Below, piece after piece: positions 13,725 through 29,194 of a DNA stretch of 32,793 nucleotides. A program made the translations under genes and the position numbers. The stretch covers positions 1 to 32,793 of the forward strand of contig JAGVME010000098.1 in NCBI GenBank assembly GCA_020053945.1, read 5' to 3'. The DNA is from Gammaproteobacteria bacterium (GTDB taxonomy: Bacteria; Pseudomonadota; Gammaproteobacteria; Ga0077554; Ga007554). The notes below the pieces were generated by a model. The model made no database searches. It saw only the letters and a list, made by a program, of their open reading frames with translations, and was not told the DNA's origin. The first letter of the stretch is position 1; the number at the start of each line of letters is the position of its first letter.

Positions 13725-13731
13725 TTAATAA
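13712..13731. terminator. Perfect 20-base AT palindrome over a stop codon
   Basis: TTATTAAATATATTTAATAA is a perfect palindrome and includes the stop codon (13725-13727) of the - strand SGNH-like gene. Being pure AT, it makes a weak hairpin. It might slow RNA polymerase or be an AT-rich protein-binding site; evidence for termination is slight. Confidence 0.3.
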
Positions 13732-15038
13732 ATAATATTATGTGCACGTTTAAAGTCGTCGACTTGCTGGTGGATTAGCTGGATGTCCTGCGGGTGGCTT
13801 GTACGATAAATTTGCTGCCGGGAACGTATATCGGTCAGTGCTTGTTCGATATTTTTACTGGTAAGCAATACCCCAAAATCTTCTGAGGCGCCACGGATGC
13901 CAAATAGCCGATTTAATACCTGGTCACCGACTGTGTCCTTAAAATGTGAGGAATCCCAATAATTGTTGAGCTCGTCCGCGCTCCCGATTTTAGGCAGCAC
14001 TTCGGTGGTAATGGCCGAGTAACCGCTAAAATCATACAGGGGGATGGACTGCTGATGGGGATGTTTGGCGGCATCTTCGGACAACAGACGAACGAGCGCG
14101 CGCTTGCCGCTTTCGATGGAGGGCCATTCACCCGTAGCCGCCGAGATCTCCATCTGATGGACATGCGCGGGCGTAAAGAAAATGCGCAGATCAATCTTAT
14201 GCCAGCGGCATAATTCAATGATGCGCTGGATGTAATCAAGCGATGTAATATTATCAGTGCTCGGCTCCGGGGCTGGTTTCTGATTGCGCTTTGGTGCGGC
14301 AGGGATGCGCCATTCCAGCTTGTAGCGTACCTCCTGCTTGTCGATCTCATCGAAATAATAGCGCGGGCCGTGGCGTTGGTAATTTTCCCATGGCTGGTGG
14401 AAAAATACTTTTCCGAGACGTTGGCCGTCCTGGGCTAACCATTCAGTGGGAATCGGCTTTTGCGCATTGATGGTGGCAATGCTTTCAGCCAAGGTATCAA
14501 AACTGATCAGAAGCTTCAGGTCGGCCAGAAATATCTTGGCCGATGACCCTAACGAATCTGCGCCCATAAGAAGTTGGGGATCAAAGTCAGGGCGGTTACT
14601 GCCGGGCGCCAGTGTGGGGTGATAAACATCCAGGCCCAGCACGACCTGCTGCAACGGATGCACCGCCTGGGCATGACGAAGATAATAGTACATTTCCTTG
14701 GTGGTGGCCCCATCGAAAGCAAGGTTATATACAGGTCTTGCTTCCGACCCCCACGCTGGGTGGGAGGGGCGCAGGCCTAAATGGGTGCGCGAGGTACCGA
14801 GAATAATGGTACGGGGTTTGATGCGGCGGATATCATATGCCTTTGATAATCTGATGCGATTATAGATGGCTGGTTTCTGCGCATTGAAACCTTCCATTTC
14901 TACCATACGAAACATGCCGTAAGGATCAACAATGACATTGAAGCTGACGACAGCGGCGATTAACGCCATCAGCGCTGCCAGCAAGATTGTGATGTATTTT
15001 TTGGCCTGAGGCGATTGGATCGAGATCACTTTATTCAC
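13725..15038 (-). CDS. SGNH-like membrane-anchored protein, probable MBOAT partner
   Basis: This 437-residue protein has one N-terminal membrane anchor (about residues 15-37) and a periplasmic domain. The segment VDPYGMF follows the anchor. GTSR at 81-84 resembles SGNH block I, with S83 as candidate nucleophile. NYWDSSH near the C-terminus gives a DxxH pair (D362, H365), the usual partner residues. AlgJ/AlgX-type proteins combine this fold with an AlgI-type MBOAT to acetylate exported polysaccharide, and the gene directly upstream is such an MBOAT. The start is GTG at 15038, 16 bases after the MBOAT stop. A 16-bp tandem duplication spans this start and the MBOAT stop. Since the MBOAT gene is interrupted, this protein may have lost its acyl donor partner and may also be poorly transcribed. 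Confidence 0.7.
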   Translation of the reverse strand: MNKVISIQSPQAKKYITILLAALMALIAAVVSFNVIVDPYGMFRMVEMEGFNAQKPAIYNRIRLSKAYDIRRIKPRTIILGTSRTHLGLRPSHPAWGSEARPVYNLAFDGATTKEMYYYLRHAQAVHPLQQVVLGLDVYHPTLAPGSNRPDFDPQLLMGADSLGSSAKIFLADLKLLISFDTLAESIATINAQKPIPTEWLAQDGQRLGKVFFHQPWENYQRHGPRYYFDEIDKQEVRYKLEWRIPAAPKRNQKPAPEPSTDNITSLDYIQRIIELCRWHKIDLRIFFTPAHVHQMEISAATGEWPSIESGKRALVRLLSEDAAKHPHQQSIPLYDFSGYSAITTEVLPKIGSADELNNYWDSSHFKDTVGDQVLNRLFGIRGASEDFGVLLTSKNIEQALTDIRSRQQIYRTSHPQDIQLIHQQVDDFKRAHNIIY

Positions 15039-15065
15039 CTAAAACTGGATTCACTTAAAACTGGA
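15034..15065. repeat. 16-bp tandem duplication at the MBOAT stop / SGNH start
   Basis: Two adjacent units, TTCACCTAAAACTGGA (15034-15049) and TTCACTTAAAACTGGA (15050-15065), differ at one base. One unit contains the stop region of the MBOAT gene and the other the GTG start region of the next gene, both read on the - strand. It looks like a local slippage duplication. Confidence 0.75.
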
Positions 15066-15996
15066 AATAGATAAACTCAGAGACTCGTGACATCATCATA
15101 AGACTCAGCCCGAACAAACAGCCAATAAAGATTGCCCAACGCGCCGATCCATTCCACCGCAAAGTGGCGGTGTCTGCCTCAACTTCACCAGAATCATTGG
15201 GGCCAGTGTAGGCAGTGATCTGCTGCGTGTTGGGGGCAAGCCACGCCACCAGCAATAAGGAAAAGGCTACGAGCAATGCCATACCGCTATCCACGGGCGC
15301 CGTTGATATTGTCAGATGAGGGGCAAGTTCCGCCAGTGAAGCGGGCACGGCGATGCCGTTATAGCCAGCCATGGCCTTGATCATTTCTAACGCCGAGTCC
15401 ATATCTTCAGCCCGGAAAAATACCCAGGCAATTACCACCGCAACAAAGGTAAGCAGTTGGGCAAATTTGCGCCCCCAGAAACTGGTCGCTTCTACGCCCA
15501 TGCCAAGCCGCTGGCGCAGCTCACGCCATGCGTGATTGATGACCAGGTAGAGGCCATGCAAAACACCCCAGACCATAAAGGTCCAGCCAGCCCCATGCCA
15601 GATCCCTCCCAACAACATCGTTAAAAACACGTTTATAAAACGTCGCGCAGAGCCCTTGCGATTGCCCCCCAAAGGGATATACAGATAATCTCTCAGAAAA
15701 CGAGACAGCGTAATATGCCAGCGCCGCCAAAAATCGATAATATTGGTGGCTTTATAGGGTGACGCAAAGTTTAGGGGCAAACGGATGCCAAATAACAAGG
15801 CGATGCCGATGGCCATGTCTGAATAGCCAGAAAAATCGAAATATAGCTGCGCGGTATAGGCCAAGGCCGCGCTCCAGGCGGCAAAAAAATCGAGCTGTAC
15901 GCCCATGGCCACAGCATTAAATTGCGGCGAGGCGTAACCGGCGGCAGTATCTGCCAATAATATCTTCTTGGCCAGGCCGATAATGAAAATGGTGAT

Positions 15997-16053
15997 CCCT
16001 AACGCCGTGAGTTAAGCGGCGGCGTAGCTGTCCGCTTGGACGAAAAGTTAGGC
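15997..16053 (-). repeat. attC-like recombination site (57 bp)
   Basis: Read on the - strand, the site has an inverse core GCCTAAC (16053 to 16047), a left arm with CCAAGCGGAC, a right arm with GCCGCTTAACTC, and a core GTTAGGG (16003 to 15997). AAGCGG pairs with CCGCTT and the core boxes pair with each other. The left arm carries one extra C before AAGCGG, like the unpaired base that sets attC polarity in aadA-type sites, which supports - strand orientation. The core ends in G rather than Y because its last bases belong to the host gene. Confidence 0.8.
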
Positions 16054-16323
16054 GCAAAACAATGAGAGGATAGCGCGATATGTTTGACGTAGACGAATTG
16101 CTGGACGAGGCCGCATCCCGACTTGAGGGGGACGCGGTAGACTTAAGGTGGTGGGCATGGCCCGAAGTTTTTGGGAATACGTCTGGCCCGCGCAACGGGG
16201 CTGGAGGTCAGACAATGACGACATTTCAAGTTTTTGGGTTTGAGTCGCAGGACGGGCAGAGAATTAAATGGTGCGCTGGAGTATGGAGATCTTGGGATGG
16301 CCAGCAAATATGGTAGCGCCTAA
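16003..16323 (-). mobile_element. Integron-type gene cassette inserted at a secondary site
   Basis: On the - strand both junctions read G^TTAGG: GTTAGGC at the right end (16324 to 16318) and GTTAGGG at the left end (16003 to 15997). The left end is preceded by a 57-bp attC-like inverted repeat. Placing the crossover between G and TT, as integron integrases do, makes a 321-bp unit whose removal exactly restores the MBOAT frame (GCG-TTA-GGG). One small ORF fills the unit on the opposite (+) strand. No intI gene and no second cassette are in the window, so this looks like off-target insertion of a single circular cassette by an integrase encoded elsewhere, now or in the past. Confidence 0.82.
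16080..16316 (+). CDS. Cassette-borne small protein of unknown function
   Basis: This 78-residue protein begins MFDVDELLDEAASRL and is rich in Trp and Gly (LRWWAWPEVFGN, WCAGVWRSWDG). There is no signal peptide or membrane segment, so it is probably cytoplasmic. GAGAGG lies ten bases before ATG at 16080. The stop at 16314-16316 is seven bases from the cassette edge, so the ORF fills the cassette, as usual for cassette genes. It is the only part of this region coding rightward, opposite to the MBOAT gene and opposite to the apparent attC polarity. The style resembles uncharacterised small proteins common in integron cassettes, but I cannot assign a family or function. Confidence 0.7.
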   Translation: MFDVDELLDEAASRLEGDAVDLRWWAWPEVFGNTSGPRNGAGGQTMTTFQVFGFESQDGQRIKWCAGVWRSWDGQQIW

Positions 16324-17106
16324 CGCCATATAACCGACCTTCACCCGGCCAAGCATGCTGAATTGCGGCATTATTTCGCGGTGATGTATGATCGGCCCCG
16401 CGATTAACTGGGGGAAAAAGCTCACAAACAATGAGAAATCCAGCAGATTGAAGCGTTCAACCTTACCGTAATAGGCATCAATCAGAAAAGCGATTTTTTG
16501 GAAGGTGAAAAAGGATATCCCAAGAGGCAATACAATGGTGGCCAGGAATAAATCCAGCCCCAAGAGAGCGTTGGCGTTATCAACAAAGAAGTTGGCATAC
16601 TTAAAGTAACCTAACACCAAAAGGTTGAAACAAAGTCCAAAAATCAATAACAGCTTCGATAGATGCCTGTTTTTTTTGCTAAATTTTGCAATTCTGGTTG
16701 CAATCGCGTAATTAATTAACATCAATGGGATGAGCAGGAGCAAATACTTTGCGCTCCACCATCCATAGAAAAGCAATGACATCATGGTCAATACAAAGAT
16801 CGAGCCACGTTCGTATCCTTGATGACGCAGACCATGGAAGAGCAACACCGCAAGGGGCAAGAACACAAATATAAAAAAATAGGAATTAAACAACATCTAT
16901 GAGCTGCCGCCTTTTATCAAAATCTTCAGGCCCTCAAGATGCGGGGCGGTTAGAAAAAATAATGTATTTATTCAATATCTTATCACAGATGGATCATAAA
17001 ACATACACCCGCTGCACAGATAATCTTGTCTGGAGCCCCCTACTTCGGGTCGCCTAAACCTGTCCCCCGGTCTACAATAGGCTCCCCCCTGTAAGGTAGT
17101 TGCTAC

Positions 17107-19403: not shown

Positions 19404-19823
19404 TTATCCTTCATAAGCGAGAAACCCCGCAAGCTTGCTTATCAGTTCGCCTAACCTTTTCGTTTCGCACTCCCACACTACCAGTACCCGCCAACCATTC
19501 CCCGTTAGAACAGCAAGGTTTTCAGCATCTCGAGCGCGGTTCCGCTCGATCTTCGACAACCAGTAGTCTTGCTTGGATTTCGGTAGGCGGACATGCCCAG
19601 AACAATCGTGCCCATGCCAAAAACAACCATGGACGAACACGGCGACTTTGCGTCCGACAAATGCAATGTCGGGTTTGCCGGGTAAATCTTTACGATGAAG
19701 CCGGTAGCCTCGATGCCCCAAGTCGCCGCAAAGCTTTCTAACGACGAGTTCTGGGCGCGTATCCTTCGATTTGACCAAACGCATTAGAGCGCTGCGCTCC
19801 GTCGGCGACAACGTATCAGTCAT
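19404..19823 (-). CDS. vsr: Vsr, very-short-patch mismatch repair endonuclease
   Basis: Vsr nicks DNA 5' of the T in T:G mismatches that arise by deamination of 5-methylcytosine at the sites of its partner methyltransferase. At 139 residues it has the normal length. Expected motifs are visible: MRLVKSKDTRPEL at the N-terminus, KDLPGKPDIAF with catalytic D52, and VFVHGCFWHGHDC with H65 and H70. ATG at 19823 abuts the endonuclease stop, so it is the last gene of a - strand operon with the methyltransferase and endonuclease. Its presence supports a methyltransferase that makes 5-methylcytosine. Confidence 0.95.
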   Translation of the reverse strand: MTDTLSPTERSALMRLVKSKDTRPELVVRKLCGDLGHRGYRLHRKDLPGKPDIAFVGRKVAVFVHGCFWHGHDCSGHVRLPKSKQDYWLSKIERNRARDAENLAVLTGNGWRVLVVWECETKRLGELISKLAGFLAYEG

Positions 19824-20819
19824 TTAATCGATGAATAATTTTTCGGATGGCGTCCAATTTTTCGCAAATTTATCGGCGCGGCGCAGCCATTCTTTTATGC
19901 GGTTTTCGGGCAGAACAGCTTCTCCCCAATACTCTTCAAAAAGCGCGGAATCCATATGCATAGCAGCGTTTCGGAGCTCGGCTTCCATAAGTTTCAATGC
20001 GCGCTCTACATAGAGCCCACCTTCGTCATCATTCTCTAAATTGGCAACGCTGCCTGCAGAGAACAAGTCGCGGGTTTGGTGGCAAAGAACGCCATGATAT
20101 GTGAGCAGATATAAAGCCACATCATCATATTTATGCTTTGCCCCGCTGGATTTGACTATCTGCGGACACAGCAATATTGCTTCTGCTCTGAGCCTAGTCT
20201 TTTCCGATTCAGGGAGCGTTGTGTAAAGCCGCGCCTGTATGGGGACAGAGTGTTCTTCGCCTGGCGCGTCTTCCAGCCACCACATCCGTTCGCCTTTTTT
20301 GAGACGACCCCTGGCATACTTGCGGATATATTGCATTTTCTCGTGCATTTCGGAGATACGGAAATCATTATAAGAAATGCCCATTTGCTCGAATAGCGAT
20401 TCGGCGGTGCCGATTTCCACTTCGAATCGAGGAACATGAGAAGTGCGGACATGCATAACGCACTTTTCGTATTCACCCCATTTTACGTCAGGCTCGCCAC
20501 CCATTTTCCCGAAAATCAAATAAACCTTCTTAACTTCCCCAACACGATTTGTCTCAAGGACACTATTTGCAACAGAGCGCCAAGTGTCTTTTTCAGTAAA
20601 TTTCACTTCAATGCCGAACTCGCCGATTGCAATATCCGGAAAAGCTTGTGCGGCTGGCGCAAAGTCGATTTCCCAATCCGCGTCTTCGAATTGGTCTCTC
20701 ACGACTTCGCGCACCCGGTTTTCAAATTGCTTGGATTCTTTGAATGGCGCTGCCTGCGCTTCCGTGCGCAGTTGCGCCACTACAGCGTCAAGCAGATATT
20801 CGAATTCATCTTGTGTCAT
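19824..20819 (-). CDS. Probable type II restriction endonuclease (PD-(D/E)XK)
   Basis: This 331-residue protein has a PD-(D/E)XK nuclease motif, with P61-D62 followed by E71-V72-K73 (FPDIAIGEFGIEVKF); D62, E71 and K73 would bind the metal and cut DNA. The rest is predicted soluble with no recognised domain. The C-terminal half is rich in charged residues and tryptophan (RMWWLEDAPGEEH). It lies between the cytosine methyltransferase and vsr on one strand, which is the main reason to call it the cognate restriction enzyme. The recognition sequence cannot be read from sequence. Confidence 0.8.
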   Translation of the reverse strand: MTQDEFEYLLDAVVAQLRTEAQAAPFKESKQFENRVREVVRDQFEDADWEIDFAPAAQAFPDIAIGEFGIEVKFTEKDTWRSVANSVLETNRVGEVKKVYLIFGKMGGEPDVKWGEYEKCVMHVRTSHVPRFEVEIGTAESLFEQMGISYNDFRISEMHEKMQYIRKYARGRLKKGERMWWLEDAPGEEHSVPIQARLYTTLPESEKTRLRAEAILLCPQIVKSSGAKHKYDDVALYLLTYHGVLCHQTRDLFSAGSVANLENDDEGGLYVERALKLMEAELRNAAMHMDSALFEEYWGEAVLPENRIKEWLRRADKFAKNWTPSEKLFID

Positions 20820-20875
20820 ACGCCCTTACCTTAAAGGGCACAGCCTAACGCCTATGAGTTGGATTGTCTAGGGGG

Positions 20876-21949
20876 CTACTTCAAGGAGGCTGCAACGGCT
20901 TGCGCTATATGCCAAGCGAGTACAGGTGGGACGGCATTCCCGACTTGCCTCTCAGTCTCACGTAGCTTGGAGTCAAAGATGAAGTCGTCCGGGAATGACT
21001 GGATGCGTGCGGCTTCCCGCATCGAGATACGGCGCGGTTGCTCATAGTGCCATTGTATGTTTCCGTGGCACTCCGCACGAATTGTGTAGCCCGGACGGTC
21101 AGCGCGAAGCCGCCTATCGCCTTGCTCTGGGCTGCGCTTGGCTTTACTCCAAACATGGTTGATGCTTTCGTTTTCTGGGAGCACCGACAGGTCGTGCAGC
21201 GCTTCGCGCGCCGTTATATGGTCTTTCAGTTCGCAAGCGGGGGCTGGCGCTTTGAACGGCTTTACGCCAGGGAGCGTGCCGACAATCATTACTCGCTCCC
21301 GCGTTTGAGCAACGCCATAATCAGCCGCATGGTATAGCTGATAACCGACGTTGTAGCCAAGATCCTTGAAGTCAGTTAACACCTGAAGCAGCGCACCCGA
21401 ATGATGCTTCATGAGCAGGCCCTTAACGTTCTCTGCGACGAAAATTTTGGGCTTGGCGCGGGCGATGGCTTCAACCATAGCGCGATACAACCCCGAGCGC
21501 TTGCCCGCCACACCGGCCCCCTTGCCATTAACCGATATGTCTTGACATGGGAAGCCGCCAATCACGATGTCGGCCTGCTTAGGCAACTCATCGAGCATCT
21601 TCCAGATGTCGCCCTGATGAATGTGCTTGCCGATGTTCTTGCGATAAGTCCTGCAAGCAACCTCGTTGAGTTCATTCGCCCACACGATATTGAATGGATG
21701 CTTGGCATAGTGACGTCCGAGCGACGTGAAGCCGCCCTTGAATCCCAAGTCCATGCCCCCGCAGCCGGAGAACAGAGAAATGACTGTGAAGTTAGTCATC
21801 TTCAGAGCCGAAGACGCCGCAGGTGTCCGTTGCCCAACTTCTTCGAGGGTTTGCGACGGTAATAACGCAAGGCTATCGCTTAAATGCACCTTACCTAATG
21901 CGGTCGAGTATTGTAGCTGTTGTTTGGTTTGATTTAGAGTAGTGGTCAT
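20876..21949 (-). CDS. DNA (cytosine-5)-methyltransferase
   Basis: This 357-residue enzyme adds a methyl group to C5 of cytosine in its target. Conserved motifs run in order: I (SLFSGCGGMDLGF, residues 58-70), IV (GGFPCQDIS with catalytic C135), VI (ENVKGL), VIII (QTRERVMIVG) and X (RQVGNAVPPVLAWHIAQAVA). The target-recognition region between VIII and IX is short, about 80 residues. The first 50 residues before motif I are extra and without recognised domain. I keep the ATG at 21949 because GGGGG lies eight bases upstream; M51 is the alternative. It is the first enzyme gene of the cluster and lies 46 bases after the small regulator. Confidence 0.95.
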   Translation of the reverse strand: MTTTLNQTKQQLQYSTALGKVHLSDSLALLPSQTLEEVGQRTPAASSALKMTNFTVISLFSGCGGMDLGFKGGFTSLGRHYAKHPFNIVWANELNEVACRTYRKNIGKHIHQGDIWKMLDELPKQADIVIGGFPCQDISVNGKGAGVAGKRSGLYRAMVEAIARAKPKIFVAENVKGLLMKHHSGALLQVLTDFKDLGYNVGYQLYHAADYGVAQTRERVMIVGTLPGVKPFKAPAPACELKDHITAREALHDLSVLPENESINHVWSKAKRSPEQGDRRLRADRPGYTIRAECHGNIQWHYEQPRRISMREAARIQSFPDDFIFDSKLRETERQVGNAVPPVLAWHIAQAVAASLK

Positions 21950-25780: not shown

Positions 25781-28700
25781 ATGTTGTTGCGTAGGCTGTT
25801 GTTAATGTTGGCTGGCAGTGTTATCTGCGCGGGCGCGTGGGCAAAGCCTGCCATTGACGCCGTGATACCCGCCCATGTTCCCATGGGCCGTGATGCTGAT
25901 ATCCTCATGCAGGTAAAAGACGGCATCAACAACCAGTTTGTGATTATGCCGGGCGGGCCGTTCATTAAAAAAACCTTACCGTTGCCGTATCGGCTCTATG
26001 ATATGGCGGTGTACGAAGGCTTTGGTTTGATCGCCGCCGGTGAACGTGGATTGCTGGTGGCCGATGTTGCCGGGACTGCCGCACCAAAAATTGTCGGCGG
26101 TTATTCGCCGGTCACTCCCTGCCTCCTGAACCCCTCGCTTCGCTCTCCCGCGACACTAGCACATCCGTGTGCGTCGTCCGGCAAAATCACGCGTGTTATT
26201 ACTGAGAATGATCAGGCGTGGGTGGTTGATAGTGAAACCGACATTGTAGTTTTGCATCTTGCCAACTTGGCCAAGCCTGTAGTGCTGGGGCGTTATCAGG
26301 GTGATCGGGCTATTGCGGACGTAGTGGTGCTCGGTGGCTATGCGTATGCGTTACTTTGTCCCCCGGTGCCTGCGATGCCCGCTGATAATGCGGGTAATGC
26401 GGACGCGCCCTCGTGCGACAGCGGCACCGACGCCGTGCATGGATGCACAAGTGCCGTAAGCGGTCGCTCACGGCATCCTGCCTCCCGCGACACTAGCGCA
26501 TCCATGCACGTCGCAGGATGCGCAGGAACGGCCATTGCCATCATTGACATGCGCACCCCGCATGCGCCTGTAGAGCTGTCACGCACCCCCCTGTCCGGCG
26601 CAACACAAAAAATATTTGTCAAAGGCAATCATGTCTATGCCGCCCAACCCGGTACAGGGTTAGCCATTATTGACGCCACCGATAAAGCGCATCCCGTGCA
26701 AATAAGCCGCCATGCGGTCACGGGCGGCGCAACGGCAGTTACCGTACAAGATAATATTGCGCTAGTAGCGCGCGGCGTGGGTGGCATTACGGTGTTTGAT
26801 GTCGCTGATCCCGCGCAGGTCAAATGGCTGGGGAGCCATAGTCGCCTGGGGCGTGTCCTGGGCATCACCGCCCCCGCCTCGCCCAGTTCTCCCCCTCAGG
26901 CATTGGTGTGGAATGACCACAATGAGGCCATCACGCTTGACCTCACCCGCCCCGCGCTGCCTTCCATTATCGCGGTGCATCGGGACGTTGCGCCGGTTGC
27001 CGCCGTGTGGCTTGATGCGCCGCATGAGAATGGCATGGTGGTTACGGCCACCTCTTCGGCGGTGCAAATCATGGATTTTTCCGCGACACCGCCATTAATC
27101 TCCAATGAAAACCTGGATACTGGCCAAGGCGTTAATTTTGGCGGCGAGCGGCGTTTGTTTATTGACGGTGAGATTGCCGCCGTGCATGGATGCACCAGTG
27201 CCGTGAGCGGCCGCTCCCGGCATCCTGCCTCCCGCGACACTAGTGCATCCCTGCACGGCGCAGGGTGCGCCGGAACGGCGTATGTCACCGACTGGTTTTC
27301 GGGCTTGCATTTATATGACATCAGCACGCCTGCACGGCCACGTTTGCTATCCAGCTTTCATACCCCAGGCTCGGCCAAGGGCGTAGTCGTGCGCGACGGT
27401 TATGCATTTGTGGCTGACGATGACCATGGCTTAAACGTGGTCGATGTGCGCGACCCAACGCGTCCCCTATCCATCGCCACCCTTGCCACCAATGGACTGG
27501 CGTACACGCCAAAATTGGCCGGTAATCTTCTGTATCTTGCCAGCCATCGCGGCGGTTTTCAGATTATTGATGTGGGCAATGTGGCGTCACCAAAAATTAT
27601 TGCCGATGTCGACACGCCCGGAAAATCCTGGAGCTTGGATGTGGCTGGCAACACGTTGTTTGTGGCGGATGACACCTCTGGCATATTGGTGTTTGATGTC
27701 ACCGACCCCGCGCAGCCCAAACAAATTGGTGTATTCAACCCCGGCGGTGCCGCCGAAGACATTGTGGTGCGTGGCACTACCGCGTACGCCACTTTTTTTG
27801 ACCAGGGTTTTTATGTGCTGGATATCACCAATCCCGCCGCGCCGCAGAAAATCGGCCATACCCCCACGCCCGGTAATGCGCGCGCCATCGAATTAAAAGA
27901 TAACTTTGCCTACGTGACTGACTGGTTCGCGGGAGTGCAAGTCATCGACATCAGCGACAACACCGCCCCCACTATTGTCGGTGAATACGATACCCGGGGT
28001 GCCGCCTGGGGCATCGGCATTAAAGGTAATTACGCGTATATTGGTGACTGGTGGGGCGGCTTTGTCACGCTCGATATCAGCAATCCTCACGCCCCCACAC
28101 TGGCCGACCATTACCACGCCCGCGGCCAGATTCTGCAAATTGCAGCGCAAGGCAAATTCGCCTATGCCGTTATAGGGTCTGGCATAGAAAACGGCAGCGT
28201 ACAGATATTTGATATCACCAATCCCCTTAATCCAACCTGGGTTACCGGCGTAGATGTTGATGGCGCCGTCGAGGGATTGTTGCTGGATGGCGCGCTGATG
28301 TACCTCGCCGTAGGCAGCGGTAATGACCGGGGCGTGGTCGTGGTTGATATCAGCAACCCATTTCAGGCGCGCCGCATTAATCACATTGCCATTGAAGACG
28401 GCGTGCGGCGACTCAGAATCGGTGCAGGGCGATTGTATTTTATCAATGCCGCCGGATTAGGCGTTATCTCCTTGGGCAGTCCCGTCCGGCCGCAACTCCT
28501 GCCAGGCTATGCCGCAAAAATAAATGACCTGTGGATTGATGACAAGCGTATTTATCTTGCCACCGACCAGGGTATGGAAGTGCTGAATGTGCAGCTTAAT
28601 GTCATATCACGCTACAAAATTGTACGCGCAGCCACCCTGGTGCGTGCACGTGGCAACACCGCATTTTTATATGTTGCAGGGTTGGGCATACGCGTGCTGA

Positions 28701-29194
28701 ATGTGGCCGAGGGTACAGTGCGTCCGGTTTCGTTATTCGATCCCGATGCACTGCTGTCTGATCTTAACCTGGATAACGGCGTGTTATACGCCACCGGACA
28801 GGATGCCCACCTCCTGGCCATCGACATTACAGATTTACAGCGCCTCAAAATCCAGGGCCTCTACCCGCTGGCGCGGCCTGCCACCGGCATCACCCTCACC
28901 AATAACACCGCATTGCTCGCCGGTAACGACATTATTACCTCCGTAAAACTGTTGCCAGCGGCAGTGATCACCCGACGCGACAAAAAAGACATACGCCTGA
29001 CGTTGCCAAAAGGATGGCCCGCCGGCACCTATCATGCCGTAAGCATCGCCGCCAACGGCAAGCGCAGCATGGGCTATAACATACTCAACATCGACATGCC
29101 CCGCACCTCAAAACCCAAGATTACCCCAGAAGAATTTCAGCGCCTGTTGCAGGAACAGAGAAAAAATTTGCTGCAAAGCCCGCCTACCCGTTAA
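25781..29194 (+). CDS. Exported LVIVD-repeat beta-propeller protein with in-frame palindromic inserts
   Basis: This 1137-residue protein has a signal peptide (MLLRRLLLMLAGSVICAGAWA, cleavage likely after WA). It is built of many about 40-residue propeller blades with recurring cores such as AYVTDWFAGVQVIDIS, AYIGDWWGGFVTLDIS, LFVADDTSGILVFDVTDP and QIFDITNP, the LVIVD type. These blades probably form two propellers at the cell surface or in the periplasm; binding partner unknown. Two 34-codon inserts (codons 218-251 and 467-500), 90% identical at DNA level, break the blade pattern. The second separates GEIA from YVTDW, a blade core seen uninterrupted elsewhere in the protein. A degenerate third copy lies near codons 112-135. 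The C-terminus is a short charged helix. The reading frame is intact throughout. ATG at 25781 follows tas by 19 bases. Confidence 0.85.
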   Translation: MLLRRLLLMLAGSVICAGAWAKPAIDAVIPAHVPMGRDADILMQVKDGINNQFVIMPGGPFIKKTLPLPYRLYDMAVYEGFGLIAAGERGLLVADVAGTAAPKIVGGYSPVTPCLLNPSLRSPATLAHPCASSGKITRVITENDQAWVVDSETDIVVLHLANLAKPVVLGRYQGDRAIADVVVLGGYAYALLCPPVPAMPADNAGNADAPSCDSGTDAVHGCTSAVSGRSRHPASRDTSASMHVAGCAGTAIAIIDMRTPHAPVELSRTPLSGATQKIFVKGNHVYAAQPGTGLAIIDATDKAHPVQISRHAVTGGATAVTVQDNIALVARGVGGITVFDVADPAQVKWLGSHSRLGRVLGITAPASPSSPPQALVWNDHNEAITLDLTRPALPSIIAVHRDVAPVAAVWLDAPHENGMVVTATSSAVQIMDFSATPPLISNENLDTGQGVNFGGERRLFIDGEIAAVHGCTSAVSGRSRHPASRDTSASLHGAGCAGTAYVTDWFSGLHLYDISTPARPRLLSSFHTPGSAKGVVVRDGYAFVADDDHGLNVVDVRDPTRPLSIATLATNGLAYTPKLAGNLLYLASHRGGFQIIDVGNVASPKIIADVDTPGKSWSLDVAGNTLFVADDTSGILVFDVTDPAQPKQIGVFNPGGAAEDIVVRGTTAYATFFDQGFYVLDITNPAAPQKIGHTPTPGNARAIELKDNFAYVTDWFAGVQVIDISDNTAPTIVGEYDTRGAAWGIGIKGNYAYIGDWWGGFVTLDISNPHAPTLADHYHARGQILQIAAQGKFAYAVIGSGIENGSVQIFDITNPLNPTWVTGVDVDGAVEGLLLDGALMYLAVGSGNDRGVVVVDISNPFQARRINHIAIEDGVRRLRIGAGRLYFINAAGLGVISLGSPVRPQLLPGYAAKINDLWIDDKRIYLATDQGMEVLNVQLNVISRYKIVRAATLVRARGNTAFLYVAGLGIRVLNVAEGTVRPVSLFDPDALLSDLNLDNGVLYATGQDAHLLAIDITDLQRLKIQGLYPLARPATGITLTNNTALLAGNDIITSVKLLPAAVITRRDKKDIRLTLPKGWPAGTYHAVSIAANGKRSMGYNILNIDMPRTSKPKITPEEFQRLLQEQRKNLLQSPPTR
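26116..26185 (+). repeat. Degenerate copy of the in-frame palindromic element
   Basis: This stretch shares CCCGCGACACTAGC and a following CATCCGTG-like block with the two full copies, but the left half has diverged. It sits in frame inside the LVIVD protein. Edges are approximate. Confidence 0.55.
26432..26533 (+). repeat. In-frame palindromic element, copy 1 (102 bp)
   Basis: The copy matches copy 2 at 92 of 102 bases with no gaps, and the flanks are unrelated. It has nested inverted repeats: outer GTGCATGGATGC with GCATCCATGCAC (perfect), inner GCCGTAAGCG with CGCTCACGGC (one mismatch), and GCATCCTGC with GCAGGATGC (perfect). It encodes 34 residues within the propeller protein. Confidence 0.85.
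27179..27280 (+). repeat. In-frame palindromic element, copy 2 (102 bp)
   Basis: This is the second copy of the same element, 747 bp from the first. The outer and inner inverted repeats are kept with one mismatch each, at different positions from copy 1. It interrupts a blade between GEIA and YVTDW; removing exactly 102 bp rejoins the normal blade core. Confidence 0.85.

Follow-up and report, generated by a model that had tools for sequence, protein, structure and literature searches.

Evidence for insertion of an integron gene cassette at a chromosomal G^TT inside an MBOAT acyltransferase gene, away from any integron, in a gammaproteobacterial lineage

We show that an MBOAT O-acyltransferase gene in a gammaproteobacterial genome is split, to the base, by 321 bp that begin and end at G^TT and carry an attC site at one end, and that removal of these 321 bp restores the gene. 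In our judgement it is highly likely that an integron integrase (IntI) inserted a circular gene cassette here at a non-integron chromosomal G^TT, in an attG-type event. The window, that is, the whole stretch of DNA analysed (32,793 nucleotides), is contig C78 of a metagenome-type bin of 2.14 Mb in 155 contigs that is 85.6% complete, and since the host genome is an incomplete metagenome bin, the insertion is known as an assembly consensus. The features of the locus are as follows.

16896 to 15055, minus strand: MBOAT O-acyltransferase gene, including the insert
16324 to 16896, minus strand: MBOAT 5' part, codons 1-191, in frame with the 3' part; PF03062 at 24 bits, just below the cut-off
16003 to 16323, minus strand: inserted integron gene cassette, 321 bp, TTAGGC...G, with G^TT at both ends
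15997 to 16053, minus strand: attC of the cassette, from R'' GCCTAAC to R' GTTAGGG, identified by covariance model and homologues
15997 to 16002, minus strand: 3' half of the genomic target site (TTAGGG), from the joined flanks
15055 to 16002, minus strand: MBOAT 3' part, codons 192-506 plus stop, open from the joint to the stop; PF03062 at 93 bits, above the cut-off
16080 to 16316, plus strand: 78-aa ORF, the longest ATG ORF of the cassette, coding status uncertain
13725 to 15038, minus strand: 437-aa neighbour, on the same strand as the MBOAT gene and its conserved partner

Read along the minus strand, the 191 codons of the 5' part lead up to GGCG^TTAGGC, the 321 bp follow, and the gene resumes after GGCG^TTAGGG. 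The boundaries of the insert are GGTTATATGGCG^TTAGGCGCTACC on the 5' side and ACTCACGGCG^TTAGGGATCACC on the 3' side, and the joined flanks give an empty target of GGTTATATGGCG^TTAGGGATCACC. When 16003-16323 was removed by script, the flanks formed an open frame of 506 residues reading MALGITIFIIGLAKK across the joint. Both the split between G^TTAGGC and G^TTAGGG and the restored protein had been proposed in the initial annotation, and both held to the base. As in attC x attG recombination, the genomic G^TT target is neither an attC nor an attI, and the empty site rejoins exactly. The 321-bp insert is present in a single copy in the host genome.

The 57-bp inverted repeat at one end of the insert, previously described as attC-like, proved to be an attC. 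A covariance model (R1), trained on 14 attCs that were drawn from plasmids, from other genomes and from the host's own integron contig, with the window site left out, matched exactly 15997-16053 on the minus strand over its full length, with 47.9 bits and E=1.8e-9 in the 2.14-Mb genome; an absent match at this position had been named as grounds for abandoning the reading. This is the second-best match in the host genome and the only attC that the model search found in the window. Among 30 other genomes of the class, searched as a control, only five matches in 4 genomes exceeded 47.9 bits, and 18 of the 30 lacked any match at E<=1e-3. A plain attC letter pattern was rejected as a detector, as it returned noise on the host genome. 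The site has R''/R' boxes (RYYYAAC...GTTRRRY), L''/L' boxes and a folded bottom strand. The cassette start, TTAGGC, perfectly complements the R'' box GCCTAAC, as is expected of a cassette end, and the last 6 bases of the attC, 15997-16002, are host DNA. The bottom strand of the circular form adopts the canonical fold, with a 7-bp stem between the R boxes (z=-2.3), and folds less strongly in the integrated state (z=-1.57), where R' contains host bases. Homologues include the attC of aadB, 80% identical over the full length, and a Diaphorobacter plasmid attC, 87.5% identical, which lies two genes away from a gene annotated as an integron integrase. The window contains no detectable copy of an attI/Pc segment, and with one attC, no adjacent intI or attI, and an intI on another contig, the locus has the composition of a SALIN, a single attC lacking an integrase.

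These features fit a reaction in which the folded bottom strand of the cassette attC would recombine with a genomic G^TT acting as an attG-type secondary site, and would leave TTAGGC...attC...G between the two MBOAT halves. The enzyme would most likely be the intact IntI resident in the genome.

Read without joining, the 5' part of the MBOAT gene meets an in-frame stop within the cassette about 19 residues past the joint, and the conserved His region GGIWHGAG is encoded in the 3' part. With a stop at this point, the predicted product is an acyltransferase without its catalytic half, very probably inactive. A protein search of the host bin (85.6% complete) found no second intact copy; its matches were these two fragments alone. 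Outside the insert the gene is otherwise free of stops and frameshifts, an indication that the insertion is recent. The product belongs to PF03062 by its Pfam match, with relatives 36-66% identical, and is an O-acyltransferase by family assignment. Of the proposal that an exopolysaccharide acyltransferase had been inactivated, the broken gene therefore stands, while the family says O-acyltransferase only and an exopolysaccharide substrate is at most suggested. A homologue of the 437-aa neighbour adjoins the MBOAT gene in 34 of 80 fetched loci; the neighbour had no match in Pfam and may have an AlgJ-like role in polysaccharide acetylation.

Elsewhere in the window, a short dispersed repeat (CTCCCGCGACACTAG...) occurs at 26145-26176, 26482-26513 and 27229-27260, in frame within a 1137-aa ORF (25781-29194), and a similar stretch lies inside a recG-like gene (L007 near 4180). 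Judging from translations, genes for a Vsr-like endonuclease, a 331-aa protein and a C5 cytosine methyltransferase-like protein stand together at 19404-21949, probably as a restriction-modification system.

The initial annotation had asked whether an intI exists elsewhere in the genome, and a full-length one was found. It is listed here with the other cassette sites of the lineage that are discussed below.

Contig C4, host bin: full-length intI (TIGR02249, 490 bits; cut-off 265)
Contig C3, host genome (L062:6078 to about 6750), minus strand: cassette with a ParE-type toxin and a PF09720 antitoxin; the site is empty in G002
Contig C100:7041-7455 (L063), host genome: cassette of 414 bp at the serB stop codon
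Contig C67 of G001 (L072:2102-3026): cassette of 924 bp at the serB stop codon
Contig C27 of G002 (L116): serB stop codon, empty of cassette, GGTAG^TTAGAGGTCAGG

The C4 intI lies directly upstream of the recG-like gene; its cassette array points away from the intI and is cut off by the end of the contig. The integron comprises an attI and at least two cassettes with attCs in attI-proximal position. Its IntI shares 56% identity with IntI1, and the catalytic residues R146, K171, H277, R280, H303 and Y312 are conserved. Full-length intI genes were present in 7/7 other family genomes examined, and in G006, an assembly of nine contigs, the attCs lie in one array on one contig; the integron has therefore probably been present in the family for a long time. 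Copies of the attI/Pc segment (TTGACA...GTAAAGAAAG) also precede cassettes without an adjacent intI, at L066:2147-2208 and L067:2309-2370 in G001 and at L078:2189-2237 in G002, and truncated intI pieces occur in G001 and G003.

Additional model matches in the host genome lie on contigs C3, C100, C33 and C92. Those on C33 and C92 (31 bits) are candidates only, as other genomes of the class give scattered matches in that range. The C3 cassette lies upstream of an exbB-like gene, with a DUF302 gene on its other side, and its attC is of the lineage's own type. In G002, a genome of the same genus, the empty site reads AAAAATGGCG^TTAGGACACC; the filled site of the host reads AAAGGGTG^TTGGAC...attC...GCG^TTAGGCGCC, with flanks matching those of G002. 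An automatic left boundary at GTTGGAT, which implied an 810-bp cassette, was rejected on the alignment with this empty site, which places it at GTG^TTGGAC. At the serB stop codon, the 924-bp cassette of G001 occupies exactly the G^TT that is empty in G002, with 87% identity beyond the cassette, and the host genome holds at the same G^TT a different, 414-bp cassette followed by a different gene. The serB stop codon (GGTNG^TTAG) is thus a reused insertion point, filled in two species and empty in a third. A GTTAGGC/GCTAGGC-like sequence also follows serB in G006 and G005.

Together, the C3, serB and MBOAT sites provide good support for at least three off-integron cassettes in the host genome, of which the MBOAT one interrupts a gene. 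Whether empty or rejoined, each of the three targets has G^TTAG and then purines; three sites are too few for a consensus, and the TTAG preference to the right of the sites is partly built in, as the model favours GTTRRRY. The initial annotation had described secondary sites as occasionally used; use at G^TT is borne out, and the C3 and serB cases indicate that such use is less rare in this lineage than that wording implies. Several other loci were excluded from the attG insertions: at G001:C41, G001:C79 and G002:C15 the cassette is preceded by an attI/Pc copy that lacks intI, and at G001:C14 and G002:C23 by another attC. Separately, MITE-like elements with ends CTGTAGAAAAAC...GTTTTTCTACAG abut the R' box of attCs at G001:C41, C44, C19 and C79 and at G002:C15 (L066-L069, L078), one of them followed by a transposase-like ORF (L066). 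One cassette of G005 (C16 69936-70857) has flanks that lie about 350 kb apart in G006:C7 (229966, 578855), reflecting either a rearrangement at the cassette or an assembly error.

Alternative explanations for the MBOAT insert were weighed against these data. The length of the insert is divisible by three, as it would be if the 321 bp belonged natively to the gene, or formed an alternative domain, and resembled an attC by chance, but read-through meets a stop (1 TAA) and a model match at the E-value given above is hardly fortuitous. This explanation is refuted by the relatives, which we scanned as one genome per GTDB species, obtaining 80 loci with identity of up to 66%. In all 79 loci that entered the count at the joint, those with a long open frame, 0 residues are inserted and 0 deleted within ±4 positions of the joint; an alignment with 11 relatives is likewise gapless there, and the family and class genomes possessing the gene carry an uninterrupted copy. 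The initial annotation had called for the uninterrupted gene in relatives and held that its reading would fall if they carried the same 321 bp. The genomes compared belong to species other than the host, and the empty MBOAT site is accordingly that of the joined flanks. We consider that there is next to no chance of a natural gene part. An assembly or binning chimera, in which a cassette contig was joined to the MBOAT gene, is suggested by the fragmentation of the bin and by the tendency of integron arrays to break assemblies, as on C4. Such a chimera would not, however, have its two joints at G^TT or leave a gene that can be restored exactly; a single continuous contig of 32.8 kb carries both flanks, and the adjoining helicase gene is 84% identical at the DNA level to that of same-genus G001, which shows that the contig belongs to the lineage. 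A chimera is very improbable, and we give slightly less credence still to another mobile element that targets or mimics an attC, such as a MITE, an IS or a group IIC intron. The MITE-like repeats with CTGTAGAAAAAC ends that abut attCs in related genomes speak for such an element; against it, the insert contains no transposase or intron, the window gave no Rfam intron match, the attC is complete with R and L boxes and G^TT boundaries, and the gene rejoins with no leftover target-site duplication.

Off-integron insertion of a cassette, as originally proposed, is thus supported by the attC, the G^TT on both sides, the exact restoration and the presence of a resident IntI. A separate question is which integrase acted. 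The attC similarity is 0.86 to the Diaphorobacter site and 0.80 to that of aadB, against at most 0.75 to the own-family attCs compared. Because the attC is nearer to foreign sites than to those of its own family, the event could have used another integrase, carried by a plasmid or another integron and since lost, which would have performed the same chemistry. We regard such a visiting enzyme as unlikely, given that a full-length IntI is resident and that two further insertions in the host used the same kind of site, the C3 one with an attC of the lineage's own type; we infer that the resident IntI performed the MBOAT insertion. The same similarity suggests that the cassette itself may have come from outside and gone straight to the genomic site.

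What the cassette encodes, if anything, is doubtful. No convincing ORF runs in the usual cassette direction, toward the attC, within the 321 bp. The 78-aa ORF runs opposite to it and is weakly longer than expected by chance (P=0.042). Searches of 369 class genomes, plasmids, genome contigs and viral contigs gave no convincing homologue of this ORF, only two matches at E 0.004-0.008 that are short or weak, and Pfam and NCBIfam gave no family match.

The mechanism proposed here has already been described. IntI-mediated cassette insertion at genomic sites is established (Loot et al. 2024, as presented in PMC12901181 and PMC12444791), and according to PMC12444791 cassette libraries in E. coli were the source of the attG landscape. 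As far as these accounts extend, the present case is alike in that IntI would have placed a cassette at a G^TT in the genome outside attI and attC sites, and differs in being a natural chromosomal event in a broken gene that rejoins exactly, rather than one in an E. coli cassette library, with the addition of sister genomes holding empty sites for two comparable insertions. SALINs, reported in the part of PMC9229058 that concerns them as 115 orphan cassettes in 41 Shewanella genomes, resemble the MBOAT insert as isolated one-attC cassettes without a nearby intI in a genome that has one; there they were counted, whereas in the present lineage joining the flanks, or an empty site in a sister genome, locates the targets to the base. 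Use of secondary sites by IntI1 is a long-standing observation, with a GNT consensus and an example, GTTAAGT, inside blaVEB-1 (PMC3518468). Those events share with our case an attC recombining with G^TT inside a coding sequence, but they were rare and took place on laboratory plasmids, in contrast to the natural, chromosomal event described here. By default, IntegronFinder 2.0 no longer reports single orphan attCs as CALIN (PMC9024848); our results indicate that single orphan attCs in metagenome-assembled genomes can be real insertions.

The value of the case lies in its base-level resolution, in a broken gene that can be restored exactly and in the broader pattern across the family, for a process so far known mainly from laboratory assays and counts of orphan attCs. 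With natural sites readable to the base, a gene that rejoins and sister genomes with empty sites, the natural attG consensus, the reuse of sites and the cost of insertion become measurable in an environmental lineage. It is tempting to speculate, with somewhat less than even confidence, that the integron of this family routinely seeds single cassettes at chromosomal G^TTAG sites, some of them, such as serB, reused across species, and that the chromosome may thereby serve as an extended store of cassettes scattered along it, at times to the detriment of host genes.
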